Positions 2,919 through 22,699 of a stretch of DNA of 64,000 bases are shown here, piece after piece. The translations under genes were made by a program, and so were the position numbers. The stretch lies in contig NZ_FNHQ01000015.1 in NCBI RefSeq assembly GCF_900103535.1, positions 1-64,000 on the forward strand, read 5' to 3'. Every line of letters starts with the position of its first letter. Position 1 is the first letter of the stretch. The notes under the pieces are model-generated. The model was not told the origin of the DNA, did not search any database, and was given only the letters and a program-made list of their open reading frames with translations. Source of the stretch: Megasphaera paucivorans. GTDB lineage: Bacteria > Bacillota > Negativicutes > Veillonellales > Megasphaeraceae.

Positions 2919-4835
2919 TTACTTATATTCAACATGATATACCGTATGCCCATTGGCTGCATACAATGGTACTAAGCCTACCGTATTATTGTGCATTACA
3001 CTTAAGTCTCGGGAACTTAATACATACGATACATTCAATTTTTTTAAATCGCTGACATTTAATTTAATATTAACAATATCCGCAATAATAGAGTTTCCTT
3101 TTGGATTTTGAAATTTTGTCGGTTCTGCATTATCCAGCGTTATATTCATATGAGCATACCGGTTCAATATACTGCGTTCTTTTTCTGTAAGCTCGAACGA
3201 TTCCCAACGCGGCCAATATACATATAAATTAACACTGTTGATGGTAGGTGCTCCAAACATGATAGGATAACTATTCATATAATTAATATGATCTGTATTC
3301 CATGTATCTCCATTGTCAACGATCCAATTTCCTTTATCCTGCGCTGCGATCTCCGTTATTTCTCGTGCCAGCTGCGTTCCATATACACTTTGTACGCCTC
3401 GTGCCACTGGATTCACCGCCATGCCGGATACAAGCGCTGTTAAGGCGATGAACAATACCAGACCATGCCGCAGTCGCAATATATACAAGGCTGCACAAAC
3501 AGAAAACATAGATACTACCATGATCCATAATGTAAAATGTTCAGGCTTGATAACCGGCAGCACAGCCCAAAGTTCAAAAATTACAAAGGCCGCAGTCATA
3601 CAAGCCGTCATTTTTTTATTGCAAACAGGCAGTTGAAACGACAATACTCGCAGCAAAATAAGTAATTGCAAAAAGTCCATGGCCGGTATCATCCTCGCCG
3701 CAGGCGAAAAAGAAAGCAGGGTTGCACGAGCCAGGAATTCGGGCCACGGATATAAAAAGTGAGTTATATATACAACAAGCAATATAATCAGGCCACCTGT
3801 AAGGCTGTCTCTAAAATGTGTTTTACAGTAATTCCAGCCAGCCAGCACGATCCCCAGCGGGGCAAAACTAATGAACGTTGCTGCCCCTGTCGGTGCATAT
3901 CCCATATCCCAGCCAAACGGTGCCATATACAGCAATATATAATGAAACAGCCAGTCAAAGGAAAAACCGCCGCCCAAATCCCGGCGTTGTCCCGGATAGA
4001 CGGAATTGGCAAAAGCCAGGATCGTATCCCATGATTTAAAAAAAACATGTACTATTGGAAGGGTGGCAAGACAGATAAGCGCCAGTCCCAAAAAAACATC
4101 TTTATATGTCCCATAGGTATTCTTACGATTTTTATAAATAATCCAGCCTGCCATAAACAGAAACACATAAGCAAAAGAAACCTGCCAAGCCGGATAAAAA
4201 GATACGGCATACGCCACTATACCATATGCCAACCCCACCATATATAACAGCCTTTTTTTATAAGAAGAAGTAGTAATATAACCGTTAACCGCAAGTACTC
4301 CCACCTGACCCCAAAGAAGCGTTTCTACAAAACCGTTGATACTGAACCACCATTGTACCATAGGAGAAAACACTGTTAACAGTGCATAACAAAAAGATAA
4401 TTTCTTATTCTGCTGCAGAAAGAGCATGCCGAATTCATAGGAAATAAGGAACAGAAAAATAAGCCGGCCCGTCCAAAAAAAAGACAGTCCATTACCGACA
4501 GGCAAAAATAAATATCCCCATAAAAAAGGACGGAATACGGTTATCACATCCCAGCAGGGCTGTCCATAAACCAAAGCGACATCAGTTACTGCGGCTCGTG
4601 ATAAATGGCTGAAATAGGAAAATCCATCAAAATACTGCGAAAATGCAAGTGGTGTAAAAACCGCCCATTCATCCAGTTGAAAATCATGATTTGTGCCCAT
4701 ACATGCCGTATCCATATCCGGCACTTGCAATATATGTGCATACAATCCTATGGAGGATCCATGTATTTGAAAAATAATCAATATGATCCATAAGATAATA
4801 CCGATTTTCCAGCGATGCGAAAGTATTCGATTCAT
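2919..4835 (-). CDS. Large membrane protein of the glycan cluster, paralogue of the 15559-17721 product
   Basis: A 638-residue protein with about a dozen membrane helices, then a C-terminal extracytoplasmic domain of roughly 170 residues. The C-terminal part (IVDNGDTWN, FGAPTINSVNLYVYWPRWE, LNRYAHMNI, LKKLNVSYVLSSRDL) aligns by eye block for block with the 720-residue protein encoded at 15559-17721, so the two are paralogues in one operon. The overall layout fits GT-C fold polyprenol-sugar glycosyltransferases or the DUF7657/DUF7654-type membrane proteins. Catalytic Asp/Glu residues are not assigned. GGGAG precedes the ATG at 4835. Its neighbours are two GtrB-like enzymes, so it may use their lipid-linked sugar. 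Confidence 0.75.
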   Translation of the reverse strand: MNRILSHRWKIGIILWIILIIFQIHGSSIGLYAHILQVPDMDTACMGTNHDFQLDEWAVFTPLAFSQYFDGFSYFSHLSRAAVTDVALVYGQPCWDVITVFRPFLWGYLFLPVGNGLSFFWTGRLIFLFLISYEFGMLFLQQNKKLSFCYALLTVFSPMVQWWFSINGFVETLLWGQVGVLAVNGYITTSSYKKRLLYMVGLAYGIVAYAVSFYPAWQVSFAYVFLFMAGWIIYKNRKNTYGTYKDVFLGLALICLATLPIVHVFFKSWDTILAFANSVYPGQRRDLGGGFSFDWLFHYILLYMAPFGWDMGYAPTGAATFISFAPLGIVLAGWNYCKTHFRDSLTGGLIILLVVYITHFLYPWPEFLARATLLSFSPAARMIPAMDFLQLLILLRVLSFQLPVCNKKMTACMTAAFVIFELWAVLPVIKPEHFTLWIMVVSMFSVCAALYILRLRHGLVLFIALTALVSGMAVNPVARGVQSVYGTQLAREITEIAAQDKGNWIVDNGDTWNTDHINYMNSYPIMFGAPTINSVNLYVYWPRWESFELTEKERSILNRYAHMNITLDNAEPTKFQNPKGNSIIADIVNIKLNVSDLKKLNVSYVLSSRDLSVMHNNTVGLVPLYAANGHTVYHVEYK

Positions 4836-4903: not shown

Positions 4904-5854
4904 TTATTTCTGTATCTCTTCATCAAAATTCAGCCTTTTTTCTTCAACAACTAACGGCCTGTGCAATATGCGAGCATTGATATTGAGAATATATTCCCCT
5001 AAAAGTCCAATAAAAAAAATTTGAACGGAACCAATAAAAAAGATGCCAATCAAAAGCGGCGCCATCCCAAAAGGAAATGCATTCCACCAGACCAATTTAG
5101 CAATCAAATATAACATTGCAATCATCATTGTCACGGCAGAAAACAAAAAACCCGTAATCGTAGCTATACGCAATCCTATTTTAGTATATGAGGTAAAACC
5201 TAACATAGCAAAGTCATATAACGTGTATAAATTATTATGCGTCTTGCCCTTCCTGCGTTTGGGCTGTACGTACGGTATTTCTTTACGTTCCGGTCCTAAT
5301 TCGGCAACGATTCCGCGAAAATACGGCAGCGGATCATCGAGTGACCGCATTATATCAACAAAGCTTTTATCATAAAGACCAAATCCGGTAAAATGTTCAA
5401 TTTGTTCAACAGATGCCATTTTCTTGATGGCTTTATAATAACAAGACCGCAACGCATACACCAGTGGATTTTCTTTACTGTTCACTTTAATGCCGATCAC
5501 GATTTTAAAACCCTTTTCCCATTCTTTCACAAATTGGGGAAGCAACTCCACGGGATCCTGAAAATCCGCACACATCGAAATCGTACACGCTCCTGTCGTC
5601 TGACACATGCCATAAAAAGGCGAATTTGCCTGACCAAAATTTCTCGCATTAAATATGGCTTTCACTTTTTTATTTTGCCCACAAAGCAATCTTAATTTAT
5701 CCCGCGTACCATCAGTAGAAAAGTTATCGATAAAAACAATTTCATAGTCATAATAGGATAAATGAGTGGAAAATTCATCGATAATAGCTTTACTTAAGGG
5801 AATTACATTTTCCACTTCATTATAGCAAGGAATCAATATACTTATTTTTTTCAT
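4904..5854 (-). CDS. GtrB-like GT2 glycosyltransferase (undecaprenyl-phosphate sugar synthase)
   Basis: A 316-residue GT2 enzyme that should transfer a hexose from a nucleotide sugar to undecaprenyl phosphate at the cytoplasmic face. Seen are IPCYNEVENV at the N-terminus, FIDNFSTDGT, the CADFQDP metal/donor motif, FGLYDKSF, and two C-terminal membrane helices ending in a short basic tail. This matches the bactoprenol glucosyltransferase family in length and order. It is followed by the large membrane protein and preceded within 22 bases by gtrA, the classic GtrA-GtrB-GT-C arrangement of O-antigen decoration modules. A purine-rich AAAGGAA stretch lies upstream of the ATG. Confidence 0.9.
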   Translation of the reverse strand: MKKISILIPCYNEVENVIPLSKAIIDEFSTHLSYYDYEIVFIDNFSTDGTRDKLRLLCGQNKKVKAIFNARNFGQANSPFYGMCQTTGACTISMCADFQDPVELLPQFVKEWEKGFKIVIGIKVNSKENPLVYALRSCYYKAIKKMASVEQIEHFTGFGLYDKSFVDIMRSLDDPLPYFRGIVAELGPERKEIPYVQPKRRKGKTHNNLYTLYDFAMLGFTSYTKIGLRIATITGFLFSAVTMMIAMLYLIAKLVWWNAFPFGMAPLLIGIFFIGSVQIFFIGLLGEYILNINARILHRPLVVEEKRLNFDEEIQK

Positions 5855-5875: not shown

Positions 5876-6274
5876 TTATCTGAATGTCCACCATTTATTC
5901 ATCAAAAAGTTTACCGGTACCGTAATCAAAAGAGTGCATATAGGTGCCAGCAACACAGATATATGTCCCCATTCCACAAGGCCATACAATAATCCGGTTC
6001 CCAGTAAAAATGAAATACCATAAGAAATATAGGTTTTAAACAATGCCTTCAACCAAAACGCCGGCGTCTTAAAAACATATCGGCTGTTCCAATAAAAAGC
6101 ATTAAATACACTCACAATCCAAGCAACAATATTGGCGATAAGATAGTGAATTCCCAAAAACACCAAGCTATAATAAACGATAAATGCAATTCCCGTATTG
6201 GAAATTCCTACTATCCCAAATTTAAGAAATTGTTTGAAATTATCTCTATCGGCGGGTTTCTGTTTACCTATCAT
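5876..6274 (-). CDS. GtrA-family small membrane protein (putative lipid-linked sugar flippase)
   Basis: A 132-residue protein with four hydrophobic segments and the GtrA signature region FLKFGIVGISNTGIAFIVYY near the N-terminus, plus a basic C-terminal MNKWWTFR end typical of the family. GtrA proteins are thought to flip undecaprenyl-phosphate-linked sugars across the inner membrane. Its start overlaps the end of the upstream SDR gene by 11 bases, implying translational coupling. The gene directly downstream is a GtrB-like enzyme, which supports the assignment. Confidence 0.88.
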   Translation of the reverse strand: MIGKQKPADRDNFKQFLKFGIVGISNTGIAFIVYYSLVFLGIHYLIANIVAWIVSVFNAFYWNSRYVFKTPAFWLKALFKTYISYGISFLLGTGLLYGLVEWGHISVLLAPICTLLITVPVNFLMNKWWTFR

Positions 6275-7208
6275 GTCTATTCCTATTCTGCAATTTTTCT
6301 TTGTACCAATTCAACGTTTCTTTCATACCCTCTTGAAAAGAGTACTGCATCGTATACCCTAAATCATTTTTAATTGCCGTCGTATCAGCCAACAGATACT
6401 GCACCTGCCGTTCACTGTAAGGAATTTCTCCCAGCCCTAACGGCAGCGAAGGATCAATCAAATCCCGAATCGTTTTCATATAGTCTTTGAGCGGCTTTGC
6501 CTGCCCGCTTCCGATACAGTAAATTTTACCATCTACACTTTTTTCTTCACCAAGCGCGGTTAATATATTGGCAACATCTTTAGCATATACATAATCCCAT
6601 ATTTGTTCACCCTTTGTACAGGCAGGTTTCTGCCGGTGCAGTAATGTGCGGAGAAGATACATGATCAACGTATTCTCTCCATCATATGGACCATATACAC
6701 TGAGTATTCTAGCCCATATGTGCTTCATTCCCATCTGATGAGCCAAAAGCCGGCTCATCTGTCCGGCACAAAGCTTTGCCACGCCATATCCCACTTCTGG
6801 AAATACAGGAGTTTCTTCGTTCAGAGCCCCTTCAGCCCTACCATATTCAGCCTGCGAACCTGCTCCAATAAACGTATGACAGCCACAGACTTGTGCAAGT
6901 TTCACTGCCTCCAATGTGTACTGAATGTTGGCAGTTTGCATATACACATTATTTCTATAGGCAGCTGCCGAGCCACTCCATCCTAAATGATAAAACACAT
7001 CGCACGTATGCGGAATCACATCGGCAGCAAACTTTAACTCCGATAAATCAAACTCCAAAATATGAATCAGCGGATCATGCGGAAGATTTTTTTTTCGCAG
7101 AGATTTAGGATTCACGATTACATACACTTCCTGCCTCCGCAATAGGCATGATTCCAGCACTGCATGTCCGATTACTCCCGTAGCTCCTGTTACGATTAAT
7201 TTAGTCAT
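6264..7208 (-). CDS. NAD(P)-dependent sugar epimerase/reductase (extended SDR), YerF/RfbJ-like candidate
   Basis: A 314-residue extended short-chain dehydrogenase. The Rossmann glycine motif GATGVIG is at residues 8-14, a GSQAEYG block follows the NAD domain, and the catalytic Tyr-x3-Lys is in YGVAK. The family reduces or epimerises nucleotide-linked keto sugars. Following the CDP-sugar genes and the ThDP enzyme, a role in reducing the keto group of a branched CDP-sugar (as YerF does in yersiniose synthesis) or of a 4-keto sugar (as RfbJ does for abequose) is inferred. AAAGGG lies upstream of the ATG at 7208. Family confidence is high, exact substrate low. Confidence 0.8.
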   Translation of the reverse strand: MTKLIVTGATGVIGHAVLESCLLRRQEVYVIVNPKSLRKKNLPHDPLIHILEFDLSELKFAADVIPHTCDVFYHLGWSGSAAAYRNNVYMQTANIQYTLEAVKLAQVCGCHTFIGAGSQAEYGRAEGALNEETPVFPEVGYGVAKLCAGQMSRLLAHQMGMKHIWARILSVYGPYDGENTLIMYLLRTLLHRQKPACTKGEQIWDYVYAKDVANILTALGEEKSVDGKIYCIGSGQAKPLKDYMKTIRDLIDPSLPLGLGEIPYSERQVQYLLADTTAIKNDLGYTMQYSFQEGMKETLNWYKEKLQNRNRHDR

Positions 7209-7270: not shown

Positions 7271-9073
7271 TTAAATAGAATCAACGTCTTTATTTTTTTC
7301 ATATTCTTGTCTATCCAAAAAAGGATACATATCATCAATCGGCGGTGACACAATAGTTCCATCCGGCAATGCCTTAGAAGAAAGTTTCGGTTCAAAATTC
7401 TGTCGGCTATCCACAACAATTTCACAAAAATAAGGGCCGTCAGACTTTACTACTTGTTGTATTTTTTTAGATATGTCACTTAAAGATTCAACTTTCACAT
7501 ACGGAATGCCATACGCTCCGCAGATTTTTTCCATATTGGGAAAACTGATGCCATTCCCATTGCATACGCCGACTAACGGCGGTTCAAAAAAACTGCTTTG
7601 TGTCTGTCTAATAGAATGGTATCCATTATTATTGATATAAAAAATTTTTAAATTTAAATTATAATATATAACGGTTTGTAATTCTTGCAAATTCATCTGA
7701 AAACTGCCATCCCCATCGATACAAATCGTCCGTTTACTGCCATTAGCAACAGCACATCCTATGGCTGCCGGAAAACCATACCCCATAGCCGCACAGCCTG
7801 AATTGGTAAATAACCGCTGCTCTTTTTTCAGATTTGCTGCTTGGAAGGTAATCACACAGGCACTGCCATTACCGCAGATAATATCATCACCTTCTTCTAA
7901 TACCTTACATAATTCTGCAATAAAAACATAGGGATTGATAGGCTTTTTTAACTTATAGTATTCCGGACGTACAGCAGGATATTTGGCATTTACATTCCGG
8001 CACCACGTCAGCCAGCGGGTATGACTATCATTTTGCTTGAAGTTCGCTTTAAGCAAATCGACTATCACATCTTTAACATCTGCATGAACTGGCAAATCCG
8101 GCTGCACTGTCGGCTTATGCAGTTCCGCATCATCAATATCAACAATGATTTTATAAGCATTTTCAGCAAAATGCTTATAGTTATAACTAATTTGGCGTAT
8201 ATTAAGGCGACATCCTAAAACTAGCAATACGTCACTATTTTCAACAATAAAATTACCGCCACGGGTGCCTACGGTCCCAGGCCGGCCACAAAACAACGGA
8301 TGTGCATCCCAAAGCGTATCATGTGCATTCCAAGCGGTAACAACCGGAAGCTGAAGTTTATTAATCAATTCGATAAATTCCGAATGTGCTTTTCCCAAGC
8401 GGATACCCGTACCTGCTAAAATAACAGGACGTTTTGCCGTTTCCAGTTTTTCAATAATTTCAGCAGTAAATGCGGTATCATATATGGAATCTTCCGGCAT
8501 ATCCAATTCTTCAGGATCAAATCCCTGCAACTCATTTGTATCTATAATGGCCGCTTGTATATCAAGCGGTACATCAAGCCATACCGGACCGCCTCTGCCA
8601 TGGGTTGCTAAATATAACATTTTTTCTAAATGATAACGTATTTCATTAGCATCGGTAATCATGTGAGCATACTTAGTCATAGGTTTTACAGATGCTGTAA
8701 TGTCATATTCCTGATCTCCTAATTGCCGAAGCGGAATCTCTGTGATCCATGTGGTCGTTTCTCTTTTAACCTGTCCCGAGATAACAAACATAGGAATAGA
8801 ATCGAGCCAGCCTCCTAATACTCCGGTAATAGCATTGGTTCCTCCCGGTCCGCTGGTAACACATATTCCAGACAAATTTCCCGTAAGACGAGTATAGGCT
8901 TCCGCCGCTATAGCAGTCGCCTGTTCATTATGATTAAAAATACAATGCAGTCCATCTTTATGACCTAATGCGTTATTTAAATGCATAGCGCCGCCGCCAA
9001 CTATCATAAAACAATCGGTAATACCATTTTCTACCATAAAGTCCGCAATATACTCCGATAATTTAACTTTCAT
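7271..9073 (-). CDS. ThDP-dependent enzyme of the acetolactate synthase/YerE type
   Basis: A 600-residue three-domain ThDP enzyme. The N-terminal pyrimidine-binding domain carries the catalytic Glu in NHNEQ (about residue 50), followed by a central domain and the C-terminal ThDP/Mg motif GDGSF...NN (about residues 450-480). It resembles acetohydroxyacid synthase large subunits, but sits in a CDP-sugar operon with no ilv genes or small subunit nearby. In Yersinia, YerE of this family transfers a two-carbon unit from pyruvate to CDP-3,6-dideoxy-4-ketoglucose. That reaction fits the adjacent RfbFGH set and is my inferred role. ATG 9073 with AAGGGG upstream is preferred over the GTG at 9079. Confidence 0.8.
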   Translation of the reverse strand: MKVKLSEYIADFMVENGITDCFMIVGGGAMHLNNALGHKDGLHCIFNHNEQATAIAAEAYTRLTGNLSGICVTSGPGGTNAITGVLGGWLDSIPMFVISGQVKRETTTWITEIPLRQLGDQEYDITASVKPMTKYAHMITDANEIRYHLEKMLYLATHGRGGPVWLDVPLDIQAAIIDTNELQGFDPEELDMPEDSIYDTAFTAEIIEKLETAKRPVILAGTGIRLGKAHSEFIELINKLQLPVVTAWNAHDTLWDAHPLFCGRPGTVGTRGGNFIVENSDVLLVLGCRLNIRQISYNYKHFAENAYKIIVDIDDAELHKPTVQPDLPVHADVKDVIVDLLKANFKQNDSHTRWLTWCRNVNAKYPAVRPEYYKLKKPINPYVFIAELCKVLEEGDDIICGNGSACVITFQAANLKKEQRLFTNSGCAAMGYGFPAAIGCAVANGSKRTICIDGDGSFQMNLQELQTVIYYNLNLKIFYINNNGYHSIRQTQSSFFEPPLVGVCNGNGISFPNMEKICGAYGIPYVKVESLSDISKKIQQVVKSDGPYFCEIVVDSRQNFEPKLSSKALPDGTIVSPPIDDMYPFLDRQEYEKNKDVDSI

Positions 9074-9168
9074 ACGCACTATCCCCTTTAAGTAGTTTTA
9101 CAACATAAAAGGCAAGCCTTCTACAATATTTCTCGCTGTTATTAAATACACCGGTATCCTAGTTAATG

Positions 9169-10776
9169 TCAACTTTCTTTATATCGAGAGGACGTAATAA
9201 AATTTACGGTTATTTTTTCTTTTACAGATTCTAAAAAATCACTTATGTAGCCATTTAAATATCCTGATTTTTCTTTTACAAAAGTATATTCTCTGCTTGC
9301 GTTAAAATAATTGTCATTTTTTCTGGAATATCCATCAAAACCCGCTAAATTAACACATTTAACCTGCACTTTTATCATTGCCTTTAGCAACATTACCAAA
9401 GAATTATCTATAATTTCTGTATTTGTATCAATTAATGTACTGAAATTCAGCACATAGGGAAAACTTCCTTTTATTTTGGTAACATTAGAAGTTGCAATAA
9501 TACCAATATCACGGCCATTGTTTACACTATTTCCCATATCATTGGCCAATTGGCTATACCGTTTGGTATTAGTCAAAAAAATATAATCAACTTCTATATC
9601 CGCAGGAACAAAATTAACAGCCATAATCAACGGTTTATTTTTCTTGATATACTTTTTTACCCTATATTTTTGTTTGTTCAAGTTATTTCCAGGTCCTAAT
9701 ATTACTATATGTTTTTCAGCAACTATCTGTTTCAGCCACGTCATGACAGCGGTATCATCACACTGAATGCTTTGATAATCAACATAAAGTTTCTCCGCAT
9801 ATGCAGCATCGTACATCAGTTTTTTACTGGGTATAATACTTTGTAGCACATCAATAATCTGTTTCACAGACAAGGTCTTTTTATCTATTAAGAAATTAAT
9901 ATAATTAGGATGACACTGATAGCATGCTGCTATAAAGAAGGGCATAGTATATCCCCAATACTGCTTTTGATAAATTTCCAAAATAAAAGTATCAATCGTT
10001 TCCAACATCCGAACAATATTGTATGTTATTCCATAATGATGATTCATATATGCAGCTAAAAGTTCACTAGGTGCGTTCCCTGCACTTTTCCCCATGCCAT
10101 ATAAAGTACCATCAACTATTAAATTTCTACTCGTATGTGAATTTAAATATGCAATGGCATTGGCATACGCCATCTGGAGATTATTATGTCCATGAAACCC
10201 TATCGCAATTTGTGGATTTAAATATGCATCCAATGTTTCAAAAATATGCAGAAGTTGAAAAGGATGCATCAGACCATATGTATCTACCATAGATGTCGCA
10301 TAAGGTTCAACGGAATTTACTAATTCGGCATATTCTTTTAATTTTTCGTCTGTATATGTCGTAACTGAAACCATTTGTGCATATACAATATAGCCTAATT
10401 GCTTTAACTGTTTACAAAAATCCAAGGCTTCATACATCAAAGGTTCTTTAAAAATAACACGTATTCCATCAATAAAGACATCTGAACAATGCTGAATATG
10501 TTCTAACCTACAAGTCCCATAATCAATCATCGCCACAACAGTAGAATTTCCTTTATCCAATCCGCCAAAAATTTTATTTATTGCTTGTGTATCTGGCATA
10601 ATAGTGCGGTTACAATCATACGTTCTACGATCATCCAGAAAACCAATTTCAATAACATCAATCCCAGCACTAACTAGACGCTTAAAAATTTCAACTATTT
10701 GATCGTAACCAAATTTCCAATCATTAACATATCCCCCATCACGAAGTGTACAATCCAGTAACTTCCTATTCCCCAT
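9169..10776 (-). CDS. DRE-TIM aldolase domain fused to a C-terminal Rossmann-like domain
   Basis: A 535-residue two-part protein. Residues 1 to about 300 form an HMGL-like (DRE-TIM) aldolase: the LDCTLRDGG opening, VIEIGFLDD, and the metal-binding GFHGHNN motif. These enzymes, such as 4-hydroxy-2-oxovalerate aldolase, make or break C-C bonds next to 2-oxo acids. From about residue 350 a second domain begins with IVILGPGNNL and contains VDYIFLTN and VNLAGFDGYS. That spacing recalls GT42/DUF115-like Rossmann proteins, though this is only a motif impression. It stands between rfbH and the ThDP enzyme, so it may supply or modify the carbon branch. AAAGGAG precedes the ATG. Confidence 0.75.
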   Translation of the reverse strand: MGNRKLLDCTLRDGGYVNDWKFGYDQIVEIFKRLVSAGIDVIEIGFLDDRRTYDCNRTIMPDTQAINKIFGGLDKGNSTVVAMIDYGTCRLEHIQHCSDVFIDGIRVIFKEPLMYEALDFCKQLKQLGYIVYAQMVSVTTYTDEKLKEYAELVNSVEPYATSMVDTYGLMHPFQLLHIFETLDAYLNPQIAIGFHGHNNLQMAYANAIAYLNSHTSRNLIVDGTLYGMGKSAGNAPSELLAAYMNHHYGITYNIVRMLETIDTFILEIYQKQYWGYTMPFFIAACYQCHPNYINFLIDKKTLSVKQIIDVLQSIIPSKKLMYDAAYAEKLYVDYQSIQCDDTAVMTWLKQIVAEKHIVILGPGNNLNKQKYRVKKYIKKNKPLIMAVNFVPADIEVDYIFLTNTKRYSQLANDMGNSVNNGRDIGIIATSNVTKIKGSFPYVLNFSTLIDTNTEIIDNSLVMLLKAMIKVQVKCVNLAGFDGYSRKNDNYFNASREYTFVKEKSGYLNGYISDFLESVKEKITVNFITSSRYKES

Positions 10777-10790: not shown

Positions 10791-12122
10791 TTACCTGATA
10801 ACAGATTGTTTTATATTACGACTCATATATGCTATCTCTTCATCGGTCATTCCCGGATATATGCCAACCCAAAAAGTATCACTCATTATTCGGTCTGTTT
10901 GCTGAAGCGTACCGATTTGCCGATATTCATCCTGCTTGTTTCTCATACTGTCGAAACAAGGGTGTTTAATAAGATTTCCAGCAAAAAGCATCCGTGTTTG
11001 TATTCCATTATTTTCCAAGTAACGTACAACCTGTTCTCGATGTATATGTCCCCGGCAGGTCAGCGGAAAGCCAAACCAACTGGGGATTGAAGATGCGCAC
11101 GCTTCCGGAAGAATGAATGCTTCCTGTACTGTTTCCAATGCTTGCCGCAATGTTTCAAAATTATGTCGACGCCGTGCTATAAAAAAAGGTAGTTTATCTA
11201 ATTGAGCGACTCCCACAGCAGCCTGCATATCTGTTGCTTTTAAATTAAATCCAAAATGAGAATATACATATTTATGATCATAACCGATAGGCAGTTCTCC
11301 ATATTTTGTATCAAATCGATGTCCACAAGCATTATCTTGTCCTGGAGCACACGAGCAGTCCCTGCCCCAATCTCTGAGAGAGCGAATAATTTTATGCAGC
11401 AGCGGATTTTTCGTATACACCGCCCCCCCTTCTCCCGTCGTCATATGGTGCGGCGGATAGAAACTGGAGGTCCCAATATCACCCACGGTCCCTGTATACA
11501 TATCGATGCCGTTCAGTTTATATTGAGCACCCAAGGCATCACAATTATCTTCAATCAGCCACAGTTTATGTTTACGACAAAAAACGGTGACCGCTTTTAG
11601 ATCAAACGGATTTCCCAATGTATGAGCCAGCATAACTGCCTTTGTTTTAGGAGACAGTGCCTGTTCCAGCTGCTCTGTATCAACATTGTATTGCGGAATC
11701 GTCACATCGACAAAAACCGGTACAGCTCCATATTGTATAATCGGAGTGACCGTCGTAGGAAATCCTGCGGCTACAGTGATTACCTCATCGCCACGACGGA
11801 TGGCCCGTTCTTCCAGTAAGGGAGAAGTCAATGCCATAAACGCAAGCAGATTCGCTGAAGACCCGGAATTTACCAAAGAACAAAAGGGAACCTGCAGATA
11901 CGCTGCCATTTTGTTCTCAAATTCAGCTGCATAGGTACCGGCAGTTAACCAGAATTCCAAAGCACTATCTACCAAATTTACCATTTCATGATAATCATAG
12001 ACGCGAGAAGCATACGGGATATAATCTCCGGCATGAAAAAATTTCTGTTGGTTATGATACGTTTGACAATATTCTTTTACCAATGCCAGTATATTTTCTC
12101 GTGCTTCCTTTTCTGTTGCCAT
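10791..12122 (-). CDS. rfbH: RfbH: CDP-4-keto-6-deoxyglucose 3-dehydrase (E1)
   Basis: A 443-residue aspartate-aminotransferase-fold enzyme that removes the C3 hydroxyl of CDP-4-keto-6-deoxyglucose. The normal PLP-binding lysine is replaced by His in PPHHMTTGEGG (about His226), the hallmark of E1 dehydrases. Nearby cysteines (about 256, 258 and 266) agree with the [2Fe-2S] site of the family. The start is set at ATG 12122, 7 bases after GGGAG, since the longer frame from 12266 overlaps rfbG. E1 needs an E3 reductase partner (DdhD/RfbI), and none is encoded in this window. The gene follows rfbG by 11 bases. Confidence 0.93.
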   Translation of the reverse strand: MATEKEARENILALVKEYCQTYHNQQKFFHAGDYIPYASRVYDYHEMVNLVDSALEFWLTAGTYAAEFENKMAAYLQVPFCSLVNSGSSANLLAFMALTSPLLEERAIRRGDEVITVAAGFPTTVTPIIQYGAVPVFVDVTIPQYNVDTEQLEQALSPKTKAVMLAHTLGNPFDLKAVTVFCRKHKLWLIEDNCDALGAQYKLNGIDMYTGTVGDIGTSSFYPPHHMTTGEGGAVYTKNPLLHKIIRSLRDWGRDCSCAPGQDNACGHRFDTKYGELPIGYDHKYVYSHFGFNLKATDMQAAVGVAQLDKLPFFIARRRHNFETLRQALETVQEAFILPEACASSIPSWFGFPLTCRGHIHREQVVRYLENNGIQTRMLFAGNLIKHPCFDSMRNKQDEYRQIGTLQQTDRIMSDTFWVGIYPGMTDEEIAYMSRNIKQSVIR

Positions 12123-12133
12123 TCGCATACTCC

Positions 12134-13225
12134 CTACTGCCGATTCCGTATCCCGGCTTGAAAATATTCTTGTATTTGCCGTTCCATACAAGCGGCAATA
12201 TCTTCTCCTGCATAATATAGCTTTGCCCATTCTACCGTTTTTTCCACAGCCATATGAATATCCCATTTAGATTGCCATTTCAATATATTTTCTATTTTCC
12301 GGCAATCGAGCCTTAAATAGGAAGCTTCATGAGCTTGCTGCTCATGATTGGTCTTCCAAGATATTGCGCCACCCCAGCTTTGACAAAAATATTCCACCAA
12401 CGTTCCTGTCGTTATGTAATCTTCTTTCCCCGGTCCTACATTATAGGATCCGGCATAGTGTATATCATTATACTGTTTATAGGCAATCAGCAAATACGCT
12501 GATAACGCCTCCAGCACATGCTGATATGGGCGAATAGATGATGGATTTCTGACAACTATTGGTTCTCTCATAATCGCAGAACGGATACAGTCAGGAATAA
12601 TCCTGTTTTCTGCAAAATCTGCTCCACCGATTACATTACCGGCCCGCGCAGTAGATACGGCAATACCTAACTGATCGAAAAAGCTTCGCTTATACCCATG
12701 TGTTACAATATCCGAACAGCTTTTGCTGTTAGAATACGGATCATACCCATCCAACCTATCTGTTTCCTTATATTGTTTTGTTTCTTGTTCCTGATTATCA
12801 TACACTTTATCGGTCGTCACATTCAAAACAGATATAACCTCGGAATGCTGCCGTATACATTCCAGCAGGTGTATCGTCCCCATGATATTTGTATCATAGG
12901 TTGCCAACGGTTCTTCATAACTTTTTAATACTAAAGGCTGCGCTGCCAAATGAAATACTATCTGTGGTTTATAGATATCAAATACCGTGTTGAGCGCTTC
13001 ATAATCCCGAACATCCCCCAAGACAGAGGTCATTTGTTCTTCTAAGCCGGAAAGACGAAATGCCTTTTCCCGTTCTGCCGTAGAAAATGGCAGTGCATAC
13101 CCGATTACGCGGGCTCCGGCCATTGCCAATAGTTTGCATAGCCATAGTCCTTTAAATCCGGTATGCCCGGTTATCAGTACTCGTTTATTACGAAAAAAAC
13201 GTACATACTCTACCATATTTTCCAT
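12134..13225 (-). CDS. rfbG: RfbG: CDP-glucose 4,6-dehydratase
   Basis: An extended SDR of 363 residues that converts CDP-glucose to CDP-4-keto-6-deoxyglucose using bound NAD. The GHTGFKG nucleotide motif lies at about residues 20-26. TTDKVY precedes the catalytic pair Tyr164-x3-Lys168 in YSNSK. Length and motifs agree with RfbG/DdhB. I choose ATG 13225, which has AGGAAGGG upstream. ATGs at 13246 and 13216 are alternatives. The start overlaps the rfbF end by about 16 bases, so the two are probably translationally coupled. Confidence 0.93.
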   Translation of the reverse strand: MENMVEYVRFFRNKRVLITGHTGFKGLWLCKLLAMAGARVIGYALPFSTAEREKAFRLSGLEEQMTSVLGDVRDYEALNTVFDIYKPQIVFHLAAQPLVLKSYEEPLATYDTNIMGTIHLLECIRQHSEVISVLNVTTDKVYDNQEQETKQYKETDRLDGYDPYSNSKSCSDIVTHGYKRSFFDQLGIAVSTARAGNVIGGADFAENRIIPDCIRSAIMREPIVVRNPSSIRPYQHVLEALSAYLLIAYKQYNDIHYAGSYNVGPGKEDYITTGTLVEYFCQSWGGAISWKTNHEQQAHEASYLRLDCRKIENILKWQSKWDIHMAVEKTVEWAKLYYAGEDIAACMERQIQEYFQAGIRNRQ

Positions 13226-13989
13226 GGTGCCCTTCCTGTTGCCCATAAGTCTTCCAGCCGATTTTTATCACGCTGTGTATCCATACATTGCCAAAATCCA
13301 TCGTGATAGTACGCCATTAATTGCTTATCCCTTGCTAGTTGTTCCAACGGTTCTTGTTCAAAGGTTGTATTATCATTGCCGATATAATCAAAAATCTGCG
13401 GTTCCAAGACCATAAATCCTCCATTGATTCGGCCGGAATCGGTCATTTTTTTTTCGCGAAAATCCTTTACTGCATTATTTTCGCCTATATCGATAACACC
13501 GAAACGCTGTTCCACATTAACCGTAGTTAACGTAGCGATTTTTCCATGTGCTTCATGAAATTTCAACAATTGGCATACATCTATATCTGCAACACCATCA
13601 CCATATGTAAACATAAATCTTTCATTGGGAATATACTTTTGAATTCGTTTAATACGGCCACCCGTCATCGTATCCATTCCTGTATCAACTACCGTGACCC
13701 GCCAAGGTTCCGCCGCTCTATGATGCACTAGCATTTCATTTCCATTAGTAAAATCAAAGGTGATATCCGATGTATACAAAAAATAATTAGCAAAATATTC
13801 CTTTATAATATGCTGCTTGTACCCAGCACATATAATGAAATCGTGAAACCCATATGCTGAGTAAATTTTCATTATATGCCATAAAATAGGTTGTTCTCCG
13901 ATCTCAATCATCGGTTTAGGCTTTAAATGGCTTTCTTCACTGATGCGAGTCCCATATCCCCCCGCAAGAATTACAACTTTCACTGGCAT
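13210..13989 (-). CDS. rfbF: RfbF: glucose-1-phosphate cytidylyltransferase
   Basis: A 259-residue nucleotidyltransferase that makes CDP-glucose from CTP and glucose 1-phosphate, the first committed step to CDP-3,6-dideoxyhexoses. The N-terminal LAGGYGTRISEE signature and KPKPMIEIGEQPILWH are family-diagnostic, and GDGVADIDV supplies the metal-site aspartates. The ATG at 13989 follows AAAGGA and gives the usual family length. The frame's earlier start at 14025 would add a non-conserved leader. It heads the rfbFGH block and follows the flavoprotein gene. Confidence 0.94.
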   Translation of the reverse strand: MPVKVVILAGGYGTRISEESHLKPKPMIEIGEQPILWHIMKIYSAYGFHDFIICAGYKQHIIKEYFANYFLYTSDITFDFTNGNEMLVHHRAAEPWRVTVVDTGMDTMTGGRIKRIQKYIPNERFMFTYGDGVADIDVCQLLKFHEAHGKIATLTTVNVEQRFGVIDIGENNAVKDFREKKMTDSGRINGGFMVLEPQIFDYIGNDNTTFEQEPLEQLARDKQLMAYYHDGFWQCMDTQRDKNRLEDLWATGRAPWKIW

Positions 13990-14031
13990 CACGTCCTTTG
14001 AAGTATCAATTATAGTATGCCGCATTGTACA

Positions 14032-15558: not shown

Positions 15559-17721
15559 TTATGACTCCTTATCATAGAGTACCTTATATATGATCCGGCC
15601 ATTAGCCCACACAATAGGTTTGAATTTAATAGTAGTTGTATCGAGCGGCTGCAGATCTGTACTGTCTGATAAAATATAGCGCACACCCAGCCTTTTTACA
15701 TCATCGCGGCTTAGTGTAAGTTCTGCCAAGTCACCATGTTCAGATATATATGTCGATGGTTCTTTCGTAATTTCTCCGATTTTGATATGACCGCAGCGAT
15801 TCAATACCCAGCGTTCTTCGTCATTCAAATCTAATTTATTCCAATTATCCCAAGCTACATAGGTATTGTAGCTGTTAATTGTCGGAGCTCCGAAAATAGG
15901 CGGATAGTTATTCAACGTCGTTTCTTCTCCTATTACGATCCATTTTCCCTTATCCACAGAGGCAATCTGTGAAATCGCCTGTCCCAATTCAGTTTTATAC
16001 ACACTGGCAGTTCCCTGCGCAACGGGATTGATCATGCCGCCGATACACAGAAACAGCCCTAGCAGCAACGGCCCCAGATGACTGCGGTAACGACAGAAAC
16101 AAGCAATTCCCACTGTCGTTACCAGGAGCAGGACGATCGTATTTACCGGCATATATGCATCTTTACAATAATGAAAAGATGCCCACGCCGAAAACAAAGC
16201 AATTCCATCTGCCAGAAAAGCCGTCTGCCATCGGCCGAGCCGCTGTGGATATATGATAATCGTACGCAATATCAATACTACATTGATATACGAAATAGGA
16301 ATAATCATACGTCCTTCGGGTACTTCAAATAGCAATGTTCCCGCAGCCAGCCAGCGCGGCCAGGGAAACATGCAAAAGGCAATAAATATGACATCGAGTA
16401 TCAGCAATGCAGTGATCAAGGCATCTATTTTACGCGCTTTCGCCATTTGATAGAGTGCCAGCAAAAATCCAAAAGGTGCAAAATCAAAAAATTGGCTCAA
16501 ATTAAACGCATATTGCGGTTTTGTGATAGCACTGAACGGCGTAAATAATCCCAGTCCCGAATTAAACAGCCAATCCCAGGTCAATCCCCCACCGGTAATA
16601 AACCGTTCTCCGGGATAGACGCTGGAACGGATAAGGGCAATAGCTGCCGCCGACATATGCAGCGTATGCAGCAGCGGCAAGATAAGCATCGCTGCAAAAA
16701 TACCGCCGCAGACTACATCCAGTCTGCCCCATTGATGCTCCCGCCAATGTTGTTTTATGATCCATATGGCAAAAATAAGAAAAATATAGGCAAACGGAAT
16801 TTGCCAAGCCGGATACATAACATATACATATATACCTGCCAAATACGAAAGCAGCAGGCCCCAGCCAACCTGCCGCCACCCTGTCCGGCACTGCAGATAC
16901 CGATGAATAACGAGAACTGCCGCCTGCCCGGCTATGAGCATTTCCACAAATTCATTGACGCCAAACCACCATTGCACAGCCGGAGACAAAACCGTCATCA
17001 GCGTATAGTACCACGCCCACGTATGGTTGTCTTTCAGCCACAACCTGCCAAATTCATAAGACACAAGTCCCAATATAAGGAGCCGTCCTATCCAGAAAAA
17101 AGCAAGGCCGTTTCCCGGGGGCATGACCAGATATCCCAGCATAAAGGGACGAAATAGGGTACATATATCCCATACCGGCTGTCCAAGGACAATAAACACA
17201 TCCGTGGGTACGGCCCGCAAGTACGGGTTGAAATAGTTAAACGTACTTCCGTCCGGTCCGGGTACATATTGAGAAAACGCAAAGGAAGTCATGTTAAGCC
17301 ATTCATCAAAGCGATCCGGCCGGCTAAAACCAATACGTGCAGTATCCACATTGGCATCATCCAGTATTTTTGCATATACTCCGATAGCCGAACCATGAAT
17401 TTGAAGCAGCGTCAACACACCCCAAAGTCCCACTCCCACATACCATCGATACCGATACAGCCAGCCCGGCCACCGTTTGATCCGCTGCACCACCGCATAT
17501 TGTATAATAAACTGCTGCAGGGGGCGTCTCGCTTTATATAAGCAGCCGCTGATAATCAGGTACATACTCACAGATGGAATAATAATAGGAATATATTCAG
17601 CAAAATGATACCGGTCTTCACTGGGAATAAAAACAGCGACAGGAATAACCATAAAATACGCCAACCCTAATAGAAACAGCAGCCATTTTTTATTTACTTT
17701 TTTTCCCCGTTTATGCAGCAT
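15559..17721 (-). CDS. Large membrane protein, first gene of the glycan operon
   Basis: A 720-residue protein with an N-terminal pair of helices, roughly twelve further membrane segments, and an extracytoplasmic C-terminal domain. It shares ordered blocks with the 2919-4835 protein (VDTARIGF..DEW, GQPVWDICTLFRPF, SPAVQWWFGVNEFVE, FGAPTINSYNTYVAWDNW, LGVRYILSD), so the two arose by duplication. It has an extra segment of about 80 residues at the N-terminus. ATG 17721 follows GAGGG by 8 bases. The upstream TTG at 17736 overlaps that ribosome-binding site. It may be a GT-C enzyme using a lipid-linked sugar, but the function is unknown. Confidence 0.75.
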   Translation of the reverse strand: MLHKRGKKVNKKWLLFLLGLAYFMVIPVAVFIPSEDRYHFAEYIPIIIPSVSMYLIISGCLYKARRPLQQFIIQYAVVQRIKRWPGWLYRYRWYVGVGLWGVLTLLQIHGSAIGVYAKILDDANVDTARIGFSRPDRFDEWLNMTSFAFSQYVPGPDGSTFNYFNPYLRAVPTDVFIVLGQPVWDICTLFRPFMLGYLVMPPGNGLAFFWIGRLLILGLVSYEFGRLWLKDNHTWAWYYTLMTVLSPAVQWWFGVNEFVEMLIAGQAAVLVIHRYLQCRTGWRQVGWGLLLSYLAGIYVYVMYPAWQIPFAYIFLIFAIWIIKQHWREHQWGRLDVVCGGIFAAMLILPLLHTLHMSAAAIALIRSSVYPGERFITGGGLTWDWLFNSGLGLFTPFSAITKPQYAFNLSQFFDFAPFGFLLALYQMAKARKIDALITALLILDVIFIAFCMFPWPRWLAAGTLLFEVPEGRMIIPISYINVVLILRTIIIYPQRLGRWQTAFLADGIALFSAWASFHYCKDAYMPVNTIVLLLVTTVGIACFCRYRSHLGPLLLGLFLCIGGMINPVAQGTASVYKTELGQAISQIASVDKGKWIVIGEETTLNNYPPIFGAPTINSYNTYVAWDNWNKLDLNDEERWVLNRCGHIKIGEITKEPSTYISEHGDLAELTLSRDDVKRLGVRYILSDSTDLQPLDTTTIKFKPIVWANGRIIYKVLYDKES

Positions 17722-17911
17722 GCAGATAACCCTCAACTATTTGTTAGTAAACCACTTTTATTATATCACAAACCCATTTATAATATAGATAAGTTAAAAT
17801 AAAGAATTTCTGTTTATACATTTTTTCGTATTACATCTTTTATAAAAATACAAGACTGTATAACAAGAAAACAGAAACGTTATACTTTTCCGCCGGAAAG
17901 GATTTTCTATC
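17722..17911. other. Divergent intergenic region between the glycan and Tad loci
   Basis: AT-rich spacer of about 190 bases that must hold the promoters for the leftward glycan operon and the rightward TadG-like gene. A leftward TATAAT lies at 17760-17765, but no convincing -35 accompanies it. Rightward, TATAAC-like sequences lie near 17860. Nothing else was recognised. Confidence 0.4.
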
Positions 17912-19444
17912 ATGCTTATACCACAACTAAAATCATACTTGAAACATCAGCGCGGTGCTGTATTTCTGTTATTTGCCACTGCCTTTTTACCCATAGTTTT
18001 GGTTAGTACCGCCATAGCTATCAATGTAGCGACTATTCAAGTACAAAAAACACAGCTGCAAAATGCAGCTGATGCAGCAGCATTAGCTGGAGCATCACAA
18101 TATGGCAGTGCTTCTGACACAGGCACCATAACGGCTAATATTAATTCTTATGTCAGCAGCTATGTTGGAAAAAATACATTTAATGCCGCTATTGGAGATA
18201 CTCCTAACGCAACTGATTTTCCTAATGATACACATACAATAAATATTAATATAACACAAGGAACGCGAAATACTGCCAAAACAGTAACAGTTGACCTACG
18301 CAGAAAAGTACCACTATATTTTTTTGGATTACATTTTCTGCAAGATTTTACAACGATAAATATTGCGGTAAGAGCAACCGCAAAATATGTTCCTACCACC
18401 ACTGCCACACCTTTTTCAATTTTCAGTGAAGGCCCATTCAAAGATAATATACTGTTTGCCGGTTCAACAAACCAATCTTCTATTAATATTGTGAGTCCTA
18501 ATATTACACTTAATCTCGGCAATGTCCGAACAAATGGAAAAATCGATTTATATGAAAGAAAAGAAAATAGTAATATCAAACTAACCGGACAAGTAAATAG
18601 TACGTCTGTCAATGTCTACAGTCCATACGCTCCGGATCAAGCATGGGCAAATATAGTGCAGGTAGGAGGCTGGAATCCTGGAGATATTCCTATATATGAA
18701 GTCAAGGGCTTTGATATAAATAGCATAAATTATGTCACTAAATTAGAATATGATACCAGCGGAAAACCTTATTATCTCCAATATCCCATTACTGGCAGTC
18801 AAAATATCACTAATATCAATTATTCCGCAAATACAGATATGGCAGATATTAATACGTATATTAATACAATTCTAAATAACTCTTCCCCTTCAAATATTAC
18901 TTCTAATTGGTGGGATGATAAAAACGAATATGGAGGAAACAATATCACGAAAACGGACAATCCGTATTCGCCCCCAACAATCACCGCAAGTACAGGAACA
19001 CAAGTATACTACACCTCTGGCAGTATAGAGTTAAAAAGTGCAACAAGCACCTACCCTAACGACGGAGTTACAAAGGTTATGCTATACAACGCCGGCGTAA
19101 CTCCTTGGGCTGCTCGGTATTACAATGTCGTCATTGCCAATGGCGATATCAATTTCAGCGGGAATACCGCTAATACTAAAAATAGTCCTTTTATTGTTGT
19201 TTCACTTAACGGAAATATAAATTTACATAACAGCACCGATTTTTATGGTTATGTATATGCACCCAAAGGCAATATCCGCGTTGATGTAGGCGGTACCGTA
19301 TATGGTAGTCTGGTAGGAAATACCATATACATCAGTTCCGCAGGACAAATTATCAATTATCAATCGTTTGCCGATTCATCCGGAAGCAGTGGCGGCGGCA
19401 GTTCCAGTTCTGCTAGCTCCGTTTCCTTAATTCCTGATTCTTAA
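17912..19444 (+). CDS. TadG-like pilus assembly/secreted protein
   Basis: A 510-residue protein with a short basic N-terminus, one hydrophobic helix (about residues 17-42) and the QLQNAADAAALAGA segment. That combination is the hallmark of the TadG/DUF2134 N-terminal domain of Flp-pilus loci. The rest is Asn/Thr/Ser-rich and predicted extracytoplasmic. It ends in a domain with DFYGYVYAPKGNIRVD and a Gly/Ser linker, resembling DUF7305-type C-terminal domains. AAAGG lies 9 bases before the ATG. It is transcribed opposite to the main Tad operon and converges with the DUF192 gene, with only 16 bases between the stops. It may be a minor pilus-associated or anchoring protein. Confidence 0.78.
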   Translation: MLIPQLKSYLKHQRGAVFLLFATAFLPIVLVSTAIAINVATIQVQKTQLQNAADAAALAGASQYGSASDTGTITANINSYVSSYVGKNTFNAAIGDTPNATDFPNDTHTININITQGTRNTAKTVTVDLRRKVPLYFFGLHFLQDFTTINIAVRATAKYVPTTTATPFSIFSEGPFKDNILFAGSTNQSSINIVSPNITLNLGNVRTNGKIDLYERKENSNIKLTGQVNSTSVNVYSPYAPDQAWANIVQVGGWNPGDIPIYEVKGFDINSINYVTKLEYDTSGKPYYLQYPITGSQNITNINYSANTDMADINTYINTILNNSSPSNITSNWWDDKNEYGGNNITKTDNPYSPPTITASTGTQVYYTSGSIELKSATSTYPNDGVTKVMLYNAGVTPWAARYYNVVIANGDINFSGNTANTKNSPFIVVSLNGNINLHNSTDFYGYVYAPKGNIRVDVGGTVYGSLVGNTIYISSAGQIINYQSFADSSGSSGGGSSSSASSVSLIPDS

Positions 19445-19460
19445 TTCCACATATTCCATA

Positions 19461-19802
19461 TTACCGTATAGCCAAATTTTGATTTATGCGCCACTCCAAT
19501 GTTTTCACTGTCCCTGCCGGCAATTCGATCGTATGCTTAGCTTTGCAGCACCCGCTTATTTGCCAAGGATGGAGATCCGAAACGATTTTTACAATACGAT
19601 AATCGGCATCTACATATACAATGTCAAGGGCATAGCGCATAAAAAACATATGGACGGCATTGCAATCAGCAAGCAGCAATCCTGTATACGCTTTCAATGT
19701 TTTTGTACCCAGAAGGCCGCGCAGGCGTTCTAAAAAGGAGCCGGCAACATAGAGTTCTATGGCCGGCTTTTTGTTTGTTATAATGCAATATTTTTTCTTC
19801 AT
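19461..19802 (-). CDS. DUF192 family protein
   Basis: A 113-residue protein. The segments LERLRGLLG, AVHMFFMRYALDIVYVD, IVKIV and the final ELPAGTVK are the conserved DUF192 blocks. Typical bacterial members carry a signal peptide, but this one starts nearly directly with the domain. The function is unknown. DUF192 genes are often found beside tad genes, and here it is the last gene of the minus-strand pilus operon, one base after tadC. The tight spacing suggests co-translation with tadC. Confidence 0.85.
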   Translation of the reverse strand: MKKKYCIITNKKPAIELYVAGSFLERLRGLLGTKTLKAYTGLLLADCNAVHMFFMRYALDIVYVDADYRIVKIVSDLHPWQISGCCKAKHTIELPAGTVKTLEWRINQNLAIR

Positions 19803-19803
19803 A

Positions 19804-20763
19804 TCAGAAATTTCCTTTAAGTTGCGTCAGTACAGTCAAGACCAAGGGACCTAGTACGACTATAAAAATAGTCGGGAAAATAAAGAAAGCCAAAGGAAAC
19901 ACTAATTTGACCGGCAGCTTCATCGCTTTTTCCCGAATCATCTGCCGATGACGGTCCCGCATATTATCGGCTTGGATTTTCAGCATATTGGCCAAACTCA
20001 CTCCCAAGCTTTCCGTCTGAATAACAGCAGCCACGAAGAGATACACGGAATCGACATGACAGCGGTTCGCCATTGCTGTCAAAGACTGACGCCGGGTCAT
20101 CCCCATGCGCACGTCACGAAGCATGCGGTTTGTTTCATCAGCCATCGGACCTTTCATGCGTTCTCCTACCTTAGTCAACGCCGCATCAAAAGAAAGTCCC
20201 GCCTGTACACTGACACACACCAAGTCCATCATATCGGAAAGTTGTGCGTTGATTCCCTGCCGTCGTTTGGTAATCATGACACTAAGGCAAAACCATGGCA
20301 GAAACATCCCACAAAAAAACATGACAAGCACGATCATCAGACGCTGCATCAAAGGCAATACATCCGTAAATATAAACCCTAACGATAATACGACCATCCC
20401 GGTACCGCATAAAACCATAACGAAAAAAAAGGTACCTGCATTCCAGATGTATTGTTTTCCTGCCCATGTGATCCGCTGATCCAATGCCCGGTACAACGCC
20501 TGCGGGGTCATCGCCTTGACGCGGTTTCCCACAATAAACATGATCCAATCCCATATGCGCAGCAAGGAAATACGCAGTGAACGATGCGGCCGTTGTTCCT
20601 GATACATCTTTCCCGTCTGCATAATATCGACAGCCTGCAACCCTTGTACCCGGTTACGTACTTGGTACCGAGTAGAAGAGCGCCGTACAAAAAGCATAAA
20701 AATCAGTAGGAAAACAGCCACTCCCGTTGTTATCGAAACAAACAAAATCATCTGTATCACCAT
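19804..20763 (-). CDS. tadC: TadC: type II/IV secretion inner-membrane platform protein
   Basis: A 319-residue GspF-domain protein with an N-terminal membrane helix, two further helices around residues 105-150, a cytoplasmic T2SSF domain (DLVCVSVQAGLSFDAAL..VG through ESLGVSLANML) and a closing helix. In Tad systems TadB and TadC form the inner-membrane platform on which the TadA ATPase acts. The start overlaps the tadA stop by 7 bases. The paralogous tadB lies beyond flp and tadE. Confidence 0.9.
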   Translation of the reverse strand: MVIQMILFVSITTGVAVFLLIFMLFVRRSSTRYQVRNRVQGLQAVDIMQTGKMYQEQRPHRSLRISLLRIWDWIMFIVGNRVKAMTPQALYRALDQRITWAGKQYIWNAGTFFFVMVLCGTGMVVLSLGFIFTDVLPLMQRLMIVLVMFFCGMFLPWFCLSVMITKRRQGINAQLSDMMDLVCVSVQAGLSFDAALTKVGERMKGPMADETNRMLRDVRMGMTRRQSLTAMANRCHVDSVYLFVAAVIQTESLGVSLANMLKIQADNMRDRHRQMIREKAMKLPVKLVFPLAFFIFPTIFIVVLGPLVLTVLTQLKGNF

Positions 20764-22154: not shown

Positions 22155-22183
22155 CGTAAGACTCCTTTATAAAAATAATATAA

Positions 22184-22699
22184 TTACTGACTGGAGGAGG
22201 TGCTGCCCTCCCAGTACATCGTCGAAGTAGCTTTGATCGTATTTGGCAGGATACTAAATATATCATTCAGGCCGCTTTGCGTTTTTGTCGCCGTCATCGT
22301 AACGGTCACATATGCATCACCAGTCGTACTCGTCGTACTGCTGGTGGTTCCTGTAGAAGAACTACTAGTCGTCGAACTGTTGGAATAATAAGTATACATA
22401 AAAGCATCTGGCGTACCCGGCTGTATTCCCTTTGTCGGATTCCACACATAATAGCTGCCCAACAATGTATTCCCATTTGTCTTACGGGTAATGATCGCAT
22501 CTCTGGCTGTCGACATAGTCGAGGTCGTCTGTACGGATAATTCCCGCGCACTTTCTCTGGCCAAGGAGGCTACCGTGGTATAATAATAGCCAAAAATAAA
22601 CACAAAATATACAACAAAAACAAATGGGATGGCAAGCATTAGGACAATGCCAAATTCCACAATACCCTGTCCTTTTTTATGCAGCAGATTCATCTCCAT
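22184..22699 (-). CDS. tadE: TadE-like minor pseudopilin
   Basis: A 171-residue protein with a prepilin-type N-terminus: KKG, then QGIVEF with Glu at +5 after the predicted cleavage, followed by a hydrophobic helix. This is the TadE pseudopilin layout, processed by the TadV/CpaA peptidase. A low-complexity Ser/Thr run at about residues 107-128 forms a linker before a final extracellular segment. It lies between the flp terminator and tadA. GAAAGGGG precedes the ATG. Confidence 0.87.
   Translation of the reverse strand: MEMNLLHKKGQGIVEFGIVLMLAIPFVFVVYFVFIFGYYYTTVASLARESARELSVQTTSTMSTARDAIITRKTNGNTLLGSYYVWNPTKGIQPGTPDAFMYTYYSNSSTTSSSSTGTTSSTTSTTGDAYVTVTMTATKTQSGLNDIFSILPNTIKATSTMYWEGSTSSSQ

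Follow-up and report, generated by a model that had tools for sequence, protein, structure and literature searches.

A two-domain aldolase encoded next to a YerE-like carboligase as a probable source of the donor for long-branched CDP-sugars

The systems closest to the locus described here are the YerE/ErwE/JanthE clusters (yersiniose, erwiniose and caryophyllose), in which a ThDP-dependent carboligase acts on CDP-4-keto-3,6-dideoxyglucose supplied by the products of rfbF, rfbG and rfbH. According to published work, YerE uses pyruvate as its substrate, ErwE prefers 4-hydroxy-2-oxo acids and couples them to CDP-4-keto-3,6-dideoxyglucose, and MMAR_2332 from the caryophyllose pathway shows similar behaviour (PMC12247030). 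JanthE accepts 4-hydroxy-2-oxovalerate (PMC12188165), and caryophyllose, a 3,6-dideoxyhexose, carries a 4-C-(1,3,4,5-tetrahydroxyhexyl) branch (PMC5706390). In our own reading, this branch formally corresponds to a seven-carbon 3-deoxy-2-oxo acid that is decarboxylated, reduced and placed on C4. The chemistry of longer branches is already published. Unlike these clusters as published, the operon analysed here encodes a dedicated two-domain aldolase, from which the oxo acid probably comes. Our search of the literature available without subscription found no description of an aldolase-DUF115 fusion or of synthase swapping.

The window, which is the whole analysed stretch of 64,000 nucleotides, contains the two-domain aldolase gene at 9169-10776 on the minus strand, encoding a protein of 535 aa. 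The plus strand of this interval has many stops and no open frame. The initial annotation had placed this open reading frame between rfbH and the ThDP gene, which is confirmed here, and had given no strand. The four motifs it named are located as claimed, with LRDGG at residue 11, GHNN at 196, GPGNNL at 361 and LAGFDGYS at 477. All genes of the operon lie on the minus strand, and transcription runs from rfbF, encoding glucose-1-phosphate cytidylyltransferase (13210..14025; TIGR02623, 399 bits, cut-off 300), through rfbG, encoding CDP-glucose 4,6-dehydratase (12134..13246; TIGR02622, 408 bits, cut-off 278), and rfbH, encoding CDP-4-keto-6-deoxy-D-glucose 3-dehydratase (10791..12266; NF011936, 705 bits, cut-off 423), to the aldolase fusion. 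The latter begins 14 bases after the end of rfbH and is followed, after 89 bases, by the gene of a YerE/JanthE-like ThDP-dependent carboligase (7271..9079; TPP_enzyme N, M and C domains). Downstream are genes for an NAD-dependent epimerase/dehydratase-type SDR (6264..7208; PF01370), a GtrA-like membrane protein (5876-6274; PF04138) and a GT2 glycosyltransferase (4904-5854; PF00535). The GT2 and GtrA-like proteins are likely users of the finished sugar. The operon contains no KdsB-like gene according to the list of open reading frames and the Pfam scan.

The genome possesses LpxC and belongs to a diderm member of the Bacillota, the phylum being read from the relatives and the lineage of the loci. 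A search of 39 other genomes from the same genus, family and order did not find the aldolase gene; so patchy an occurrence is typical of loci for surface polysaccharides. The GC content of the gene is 32.3%, compared with 39-43% in the flanking sugar genes, and its GC3 is 0.25 against 0.32-0.40, hinting at a possible separate acquisition. Since the aldolase gene averages 4 points of GC below the ThDP gene across 74 loci, we do not lean on this hint.

The N-terminal part of the protein (residues 1-250; 10027..10776, minus strand) is a DRE-TIM (HMGL-like) aldolase barrel. PF00682 (HMGL-like) matches residues 5-247 with an E-value of 4.2e-28 and 98.9 bits, against a gathering cut-off of 29. Nine residues, R12, D13, E43, H195, H197, N199, D222, N234 and E238, are invariant in all 44 sequences compared; they include the RD motif and the HxH metal ligands (R12, D13, H195 and H197) by which a DRE-TIM metallolyase is recognized. 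The Pfam match and the invariant residues together bear out the aldolase assignment made initially. The barrel is followed by a helical extension (residues 251-335; 9772..10026, minus strand), for which AF2 predicts helices at 254-335. The same extension is present in an aldolase-only relative from Desulfobaculum (L020), whose protein stops at its end. The nearest PDB match of the aldolase half is the putative aldolase 3dxi (3.3e-27, residues 4-309), which, unlike the fusion, has 320 aa and no C-terminal domain, and whose deposit name assigns no function.

The barrel, the R-D motif and the HxH metal site are shared with 4-hydroxy-2-oxovalerate aldolase (DmpG/BphI/MhpE). Unlike that enzyme, the window protein scores 96.1 for TIGR03217, far under the equivalog cut-off of 286, carries an extra DUF115-like domain, stands in a biosynthetic sugar context and has no acylating acetaldehyde dehydrogenase partner among the operon neighbours scanned. 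The superfamily also includes 2-isopropylmalate and homocitrate synthases, and all of these families match weakly. The enzyme could accordingly be read as a Claisen-type synthase joining acetyl-CoA to a 2-oxo acid, as citramalate and homocitrate synthases do, or as a retro-aldol enzyme of 4-hydroxy-2-oxo acid catabolism. We regard both as very improbable, because the curated NCBIfam equivalogs (4-hydroxy-2-oxovalerate aldolase and the isopropylmalate, homocitrate and citramalate synthases) all score far under their cut-offs, the neighbouring genes serve sugar biosynthesis, and another aldolase paralogue, separate from this one, is located among transporter and regulator genes on contig C57. 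Moreover, Claisen products have no free 2-oxo group, which KdsB and ThDP decarboxylases need.

Among solved structures, the ThDP protein of the window best matches JanthE (8rph, 4.9e-113); its match to PpYerE is weaker (5ahk, 4.1e-69). Its score of 382 bits to JanthE, compared with 244 for the best acetolactate synthase, and its three TPP domains argue for a YerE-like enzyme as judged from sequence. Elsewhere in the genome, two other matches to the TPP N-terminal family score higher, and the window gene is therefore probably not that of the housekeeping enzyme. Searches with the ThDP protein in plasmid, phage and viral collections returned either nothing or, among the matches listed, ordinary acetolactate synthases alone.

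We consider it probable that the aldolase makes a keto-acid donor which the ThDP enzyme joins to the CDP-sugar, giving a C4 branch longer than that of yersiniose. Domain identities, folds, conservation, gene associations and fusions are observed, and from them we infer the reactions with their aldol direction, which aldehyde is used, how long the branch is and what the SDR and the second domain do. In this pathway, the N-terminal pyruvate aldolase would join pyruvate and an aldehyde, which is probably a sugar or sugar phosphate of few carbons, giving a 3-deoxy-2-oxo acid with a hydroxyl at position 4. Were the aldehyde phosphorylated, a HAD phosphatase, whose gene is adjacent in many relatives, would take off the phosphate. 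The ThDP enzyme would then decarboxylate the acid and transfer the acyl anion to C4 of the CDP-4-keto-3,6-dideoxyglucose provided by RfbF, RfbG and RfbH, and the SDR may reduce the ketone of the branch. The predicted product carries, on C4 of a CDP-sugar, a polyhydroxylated branch that exceeds the two-carbon branch of yersiniose and is of the erwiniose or caryophyllose kind; it would be destined for a surface polysaccharide. In the window, no HAD phosphatase gene adjoins the aldolase gene, and the closest HAD relatives in the genome are only 22-31% identical; here, either the aldehyde carries no phosphate or a different phosphatase removes it. The earlier proposal, in which the pair supplies the ThDP enzyme with a 2-oxo acid of greater length than pyruvate, is well supported by the gene context, by the genes found beside related ThDP enzymes (see below), by PMC12247030 and by PMC12188165; the acid would presumably be of the 3-deoxy-2-oxo type.

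A scan of 84,980 species genomes yielded 80 two-domain homologues with 45-53% identity, which match over essentially the full length and both domains, save where a contig end cuts them; the fusion is therefore more than chance. Most of their hosts belong to the Lachnospiraceae or other Clostridia; Alistipes, Prolixibacteraceae, Fibrobacter, Acidaminococcaceae and Eggerthellaceae contribute single cases. The set was picked by similarity to the window protein, so that the following counts describe the closest branch only and the synteny partly reflects shared ancestry. A YerE-like ThDP gene is present in the fetched flanks of 74 of the 80 relatives, and in four of the remaining six the contig stops 0-626 bases downstream. 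An SDR gene occurs in 57 of the 80 loci and a HAD phosphatase gene in 48, commonly between the aldolase and ThDP genes. At least one of rfbF, rfbG and rfbH accompanies the aldolase in 48/80 loci, and all three do so in 24/80. In 29 loci, the ThDP gene is found without detected rfbF/G/H in the fetched flanks, and the acceptor sugar may therefore differ there. Genes like the GT2 gene of the window are present in 38/80 loci and GtrA-like genes in 13/80. The co-occurrence with YerE-like genes and rfbH, suggested as a check by the initial annotation, thus holds for the ThDP gene, but strict pairing with both ThDP and rfbH genes is confined to the closest branch, and distant members stand with KdsB and sugar kinases. 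As a separate observation, about eight aldolase-ThDP loci (L062:15835-16905, L202:8082-9140 and others) contain a dehydroquinate-synthase-like sugar-phosphate cyclase, several of them with a short-chain reductase as well; a cyclised branch or donor is conceivable.

In the converse direction, the ThDP subfamily was searched at E 1e-95 or better and found in 13 of 398 Bacillota genomes, whose neighbourhoods were annotated. A gene of the 3-deoxy-2-oxo-acid-synthase type stands beside the ThDP gene in nine of the 13 loci and comes from four Pfam families: the DRE-TIM fusion in two (the window and G361), HpcH/HpaI in three (L200, L201 and L203), type I DAHP synthase in two (L205 and L209) and NeuB in two (L206 and L207). 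The recruitment of different synthase families to one type of ThDP enzyme is our strongest evidence that its donor is a 3-deoxy-2-oxo acid. HAD or KdsC-type phosphatases are encoded as well in the seven loci with other synthases, and L205, L209, L206 and L207 contain ribulose-phosphate-3-epimerase or SIS-isomerase genes, their other synthases suggesting a different branch donor in each. The remaining four genomes (G142, G206, G279 and G151) show no such synthase over a distance of about 8 kb, and for some ThDP members the substrate may accordingly be pyruvate; G279 and G151 hold the least similar enzymes, at 38%. Side by side, the gene sets of these loci are DAHP synthase I, HAD, a ribulose-P epimerase-CBS protein and an RraA-like protein in L205 and L209, and NeuB, a KdsC-like protein and SIS in L206 and L207.

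In other loci, the aldolase is accompanied by KdsB. KdsB and HAD genes, one intervening gene and then the two-domain aldolase gene follow each other in L029 (Robinsoniella peoriensis), and the full-length but distant relatives L003 and L021 (Leisingera) have KdsB adjoining, together with a sugar kinase or HAD. KdsB, HAD and aldolase genes form a row in L036, with the ThDP gene on the other strand. This arrangement resembles the KdsA/NeuB, KdsC and KdsB route to CMP-ulosonic acids, in which a synthase and a HAD phosphatase precede the use of a 3-deoxy-2-oxo acid, and the same partners are found in L029, L036 and L021. Unlike in that route, a pyruvate aldolase replaces the PEP-dependent synthase, and the acid of the window's pathway would be passed to the ThDP enzyme rather than KdsB. 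The aldolase goes with KdsB in some loci and with the ThDP decarboxylase in others, and since only a 3-deoxy-2-oxo acid is suited to both, the common product would be such an acid, as the chemistry of the family leads one to expect of a pyruvate aldolase.

The same loci bear on the idea that the ThDP enzyme, like YerE, takes pyruvate and builds a yersiniose-type two-carbon branch, with the aldolase fusion independently making an ulosonic acid that enters a different residue of that polysaccharide. An aldolase of this type standing with KdsB elsewhere could serve such an independent branch, and the two strands of L036, one with the ThDP gene and the other with the KdsB-HAD-aldolase row, fit the idea. 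For the window, we judge it distinctly unlikely: the operon is without a KdsB-like gene, the aldolase gene is placed between rfbH and the ThDP gene, and the ThDP protein is nearer JanthE than PpYerE. In addition, ThDP genes of this type repeatedly have a synthase from one of four Pfam families beside them and KdsB is absent, no KdsB-like gene being detected in the nine synthase-bearing loci. Delivery of the acid from the aldolase to the ThDP enzyme is the preferred reading.

Viral-classed contigs add to both fates. The pairing of aldolase and ThDP genes recurs in many bacteria and in such contigs. In IMG/VR, the aldolase without the DUF115-like part has an adjoining ThDP gene in L103-L111 and an adjoining KdsB gene in L127-L130. 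Aldolase and KdsB are joined in one protein of 555-574 aa in 16 loci, counted by length and best match and in part redundant; L112 was fully read. As observations on these contigs, L103:4496-14697 and L104-L111 hold a cassette of RfbH/RfbG-like, aldolase and ThDP genes (with HAD in L103), possibly a virus-borne pathway for a long-branched sugar, and the DRE-TIM aldolase-KdsB fusion at L112:9974-11692, with similar ones among L113-L126, L131 and L132, may be a two-step CMP-ulosonate enzyme.

The C-terminal part (residues 336-535; 9172..9771, minus strand) is assigned by AF2, hhalign, Foldseek and conservation to a DUF115/MptE-like Rossmann-type domain. Its conserved motifs are GPG, N388, N403/R406/Y407, S430-N431, D457, AGxDGY, N508 and T528. 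The AF2 model of these residues, built with 43 homologues, reaches a pLDDT of 91.7 and a pTM of 0.89. The full-length model has a pLDDT of 89.6 and a pTM of 0.68, and the mutual placement of the two domains is therefore less certain. The last 200 aa of the window protein lie outside every Pfam match, and a Pfam scan of the 43 C-terminal domains produced stray matches at noise level. For PF01973 the scores stay under the gathering score, with no match for the window domain and one of the 43 relatives at E 0.0083. In profile comparison by hhalign, the domain aligns with the PF01973/Maf set at a probability of 93.5 over about 127 columns, compared with at most 3.4 for the controls (six unrelated neighbour families, including Rossmann SDRs, reversed columns and 30 shuffles). 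The named top matches of Foldseek against the viral models of BFVD are DUF115/MptE-like (E 1.1e-4 and 1.7e-4, probability 1.00). Against the PDB, Foldseek returned nothing below E 0.001 for this model, the best by probability being SteA (TM 0.46), and the only profile matches, to MptE, SteA and a GT42 sialyltransferase (E 0.23), are all sub-threshold. SteA was rejected as the closest identity because its profile match spans only 45 columns, and DUF115 is preferred. By sequence profile and predicted fold, residues 336-535 form a domain with a confident model that belongs, as a remote member, to the DUF115/MptE-like superfamily. Unlike PF01973 members, which include the Maf flagellin glycosyltransferases, the domain is fused to an aldolase and has no flagellin context.

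The comparison with Cst-II and DUF115 foreseen in the initial annotation thus bears out the DUF115/MptE side, with GT42 appearing only in the sub-threshold profile match. The general-base histidine of GT42 is His188 in Cst-II. Over the 43 C-terminal sequences, no column reaches 30% histidine, and CST-I (PF06002, GT42) matches neither the window protein nor any relative among the families listed for them; nor is it matched in 149 Bacillota genomes and three others. These results give no support to catalytic membership of GT42. Since the PF01973 domain of Maf resembles Cst-II (PMC11339370), the label "GT42/DUF115-like" is fair as a statement about fold.

Maf enzymes use CMP-ulosonates (PMC11339370), and L130 has the DUF115-like domain as a separate gene close to separate aldolase and KdsB genes. 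Together with the remote kinship to PF01973, these points leave a small but real chance that the C-terminal domain is an active Maf/GT42-like glycosyltransferase transferring the finished sugar, the fusion then coupling synthesis to transfer; this concerns the second domain only and is compatible with the pathway proposed above. The lack of a conserved histidine speaks against it, as do the separate GT2 genes and the retention of the domain in loci without KdsB, where a CMP-ulosonate is not expected. Moreover, the domain was not detected in the seven ThDP loci whose synthases are unrelated, and the aldolase of L020, a locus with rfbF/G/H and a split transketolase, is without it. Neither the ThDP step nor the CDP-sugar steps thus require the domain. 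Most likely it would assist its own aldolase, by selecting or delivering the substrate or by controlling the reaction, and would take no part in the ThDP step. Separately, L029, which also carries the aldolase-DUF115-like fusion, encodes a stand-alone PF01973 (MptE-like) protein (L029:5555-6463, 1e-16) directly upstream of KdsB.

A wider reading, which we find plausible but somewhat short of probable, is that one ThDP family joins two sugars carbon-to-carbon through decarboxylated ulosonic-type 3-deoxy-2-oxo acids, the gene for the acid being swapped among the DRE-TIM fusion, HpaI aldolase, DAHP synthase and NeuB. The aldolase-DUF115 fusion would then be a new family of PEP-independent ulosonic-acid synthases, with the DUF115-like domain acting in catalysis or substrate delivery, and would also feed CMP-ulosonate pathways, including those on viral-classed contigs. 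If the type of neighbouring synthase predicts the donor, the length and shape of the branch could be predicted from gene order. If true, this would provide a PEP-independent route to 3-deoxy-2-oxo acids, a first handle on an aldolase-tied DUF115-like domain and pairs of enzymes with which chiral tertiary alcohols could be built on sugars.

Two further features of the window lie around the sugar operon. Two large membrane proteins that are alike in sequence, possibly paralogues, are encoded one on each side of it (2919-4835 and 15559-17736), and beyond the sugar cluster, at 17912-28953, there is apparently a Tad-type (tight-adherence) pilus gene set, as recognized by eye.
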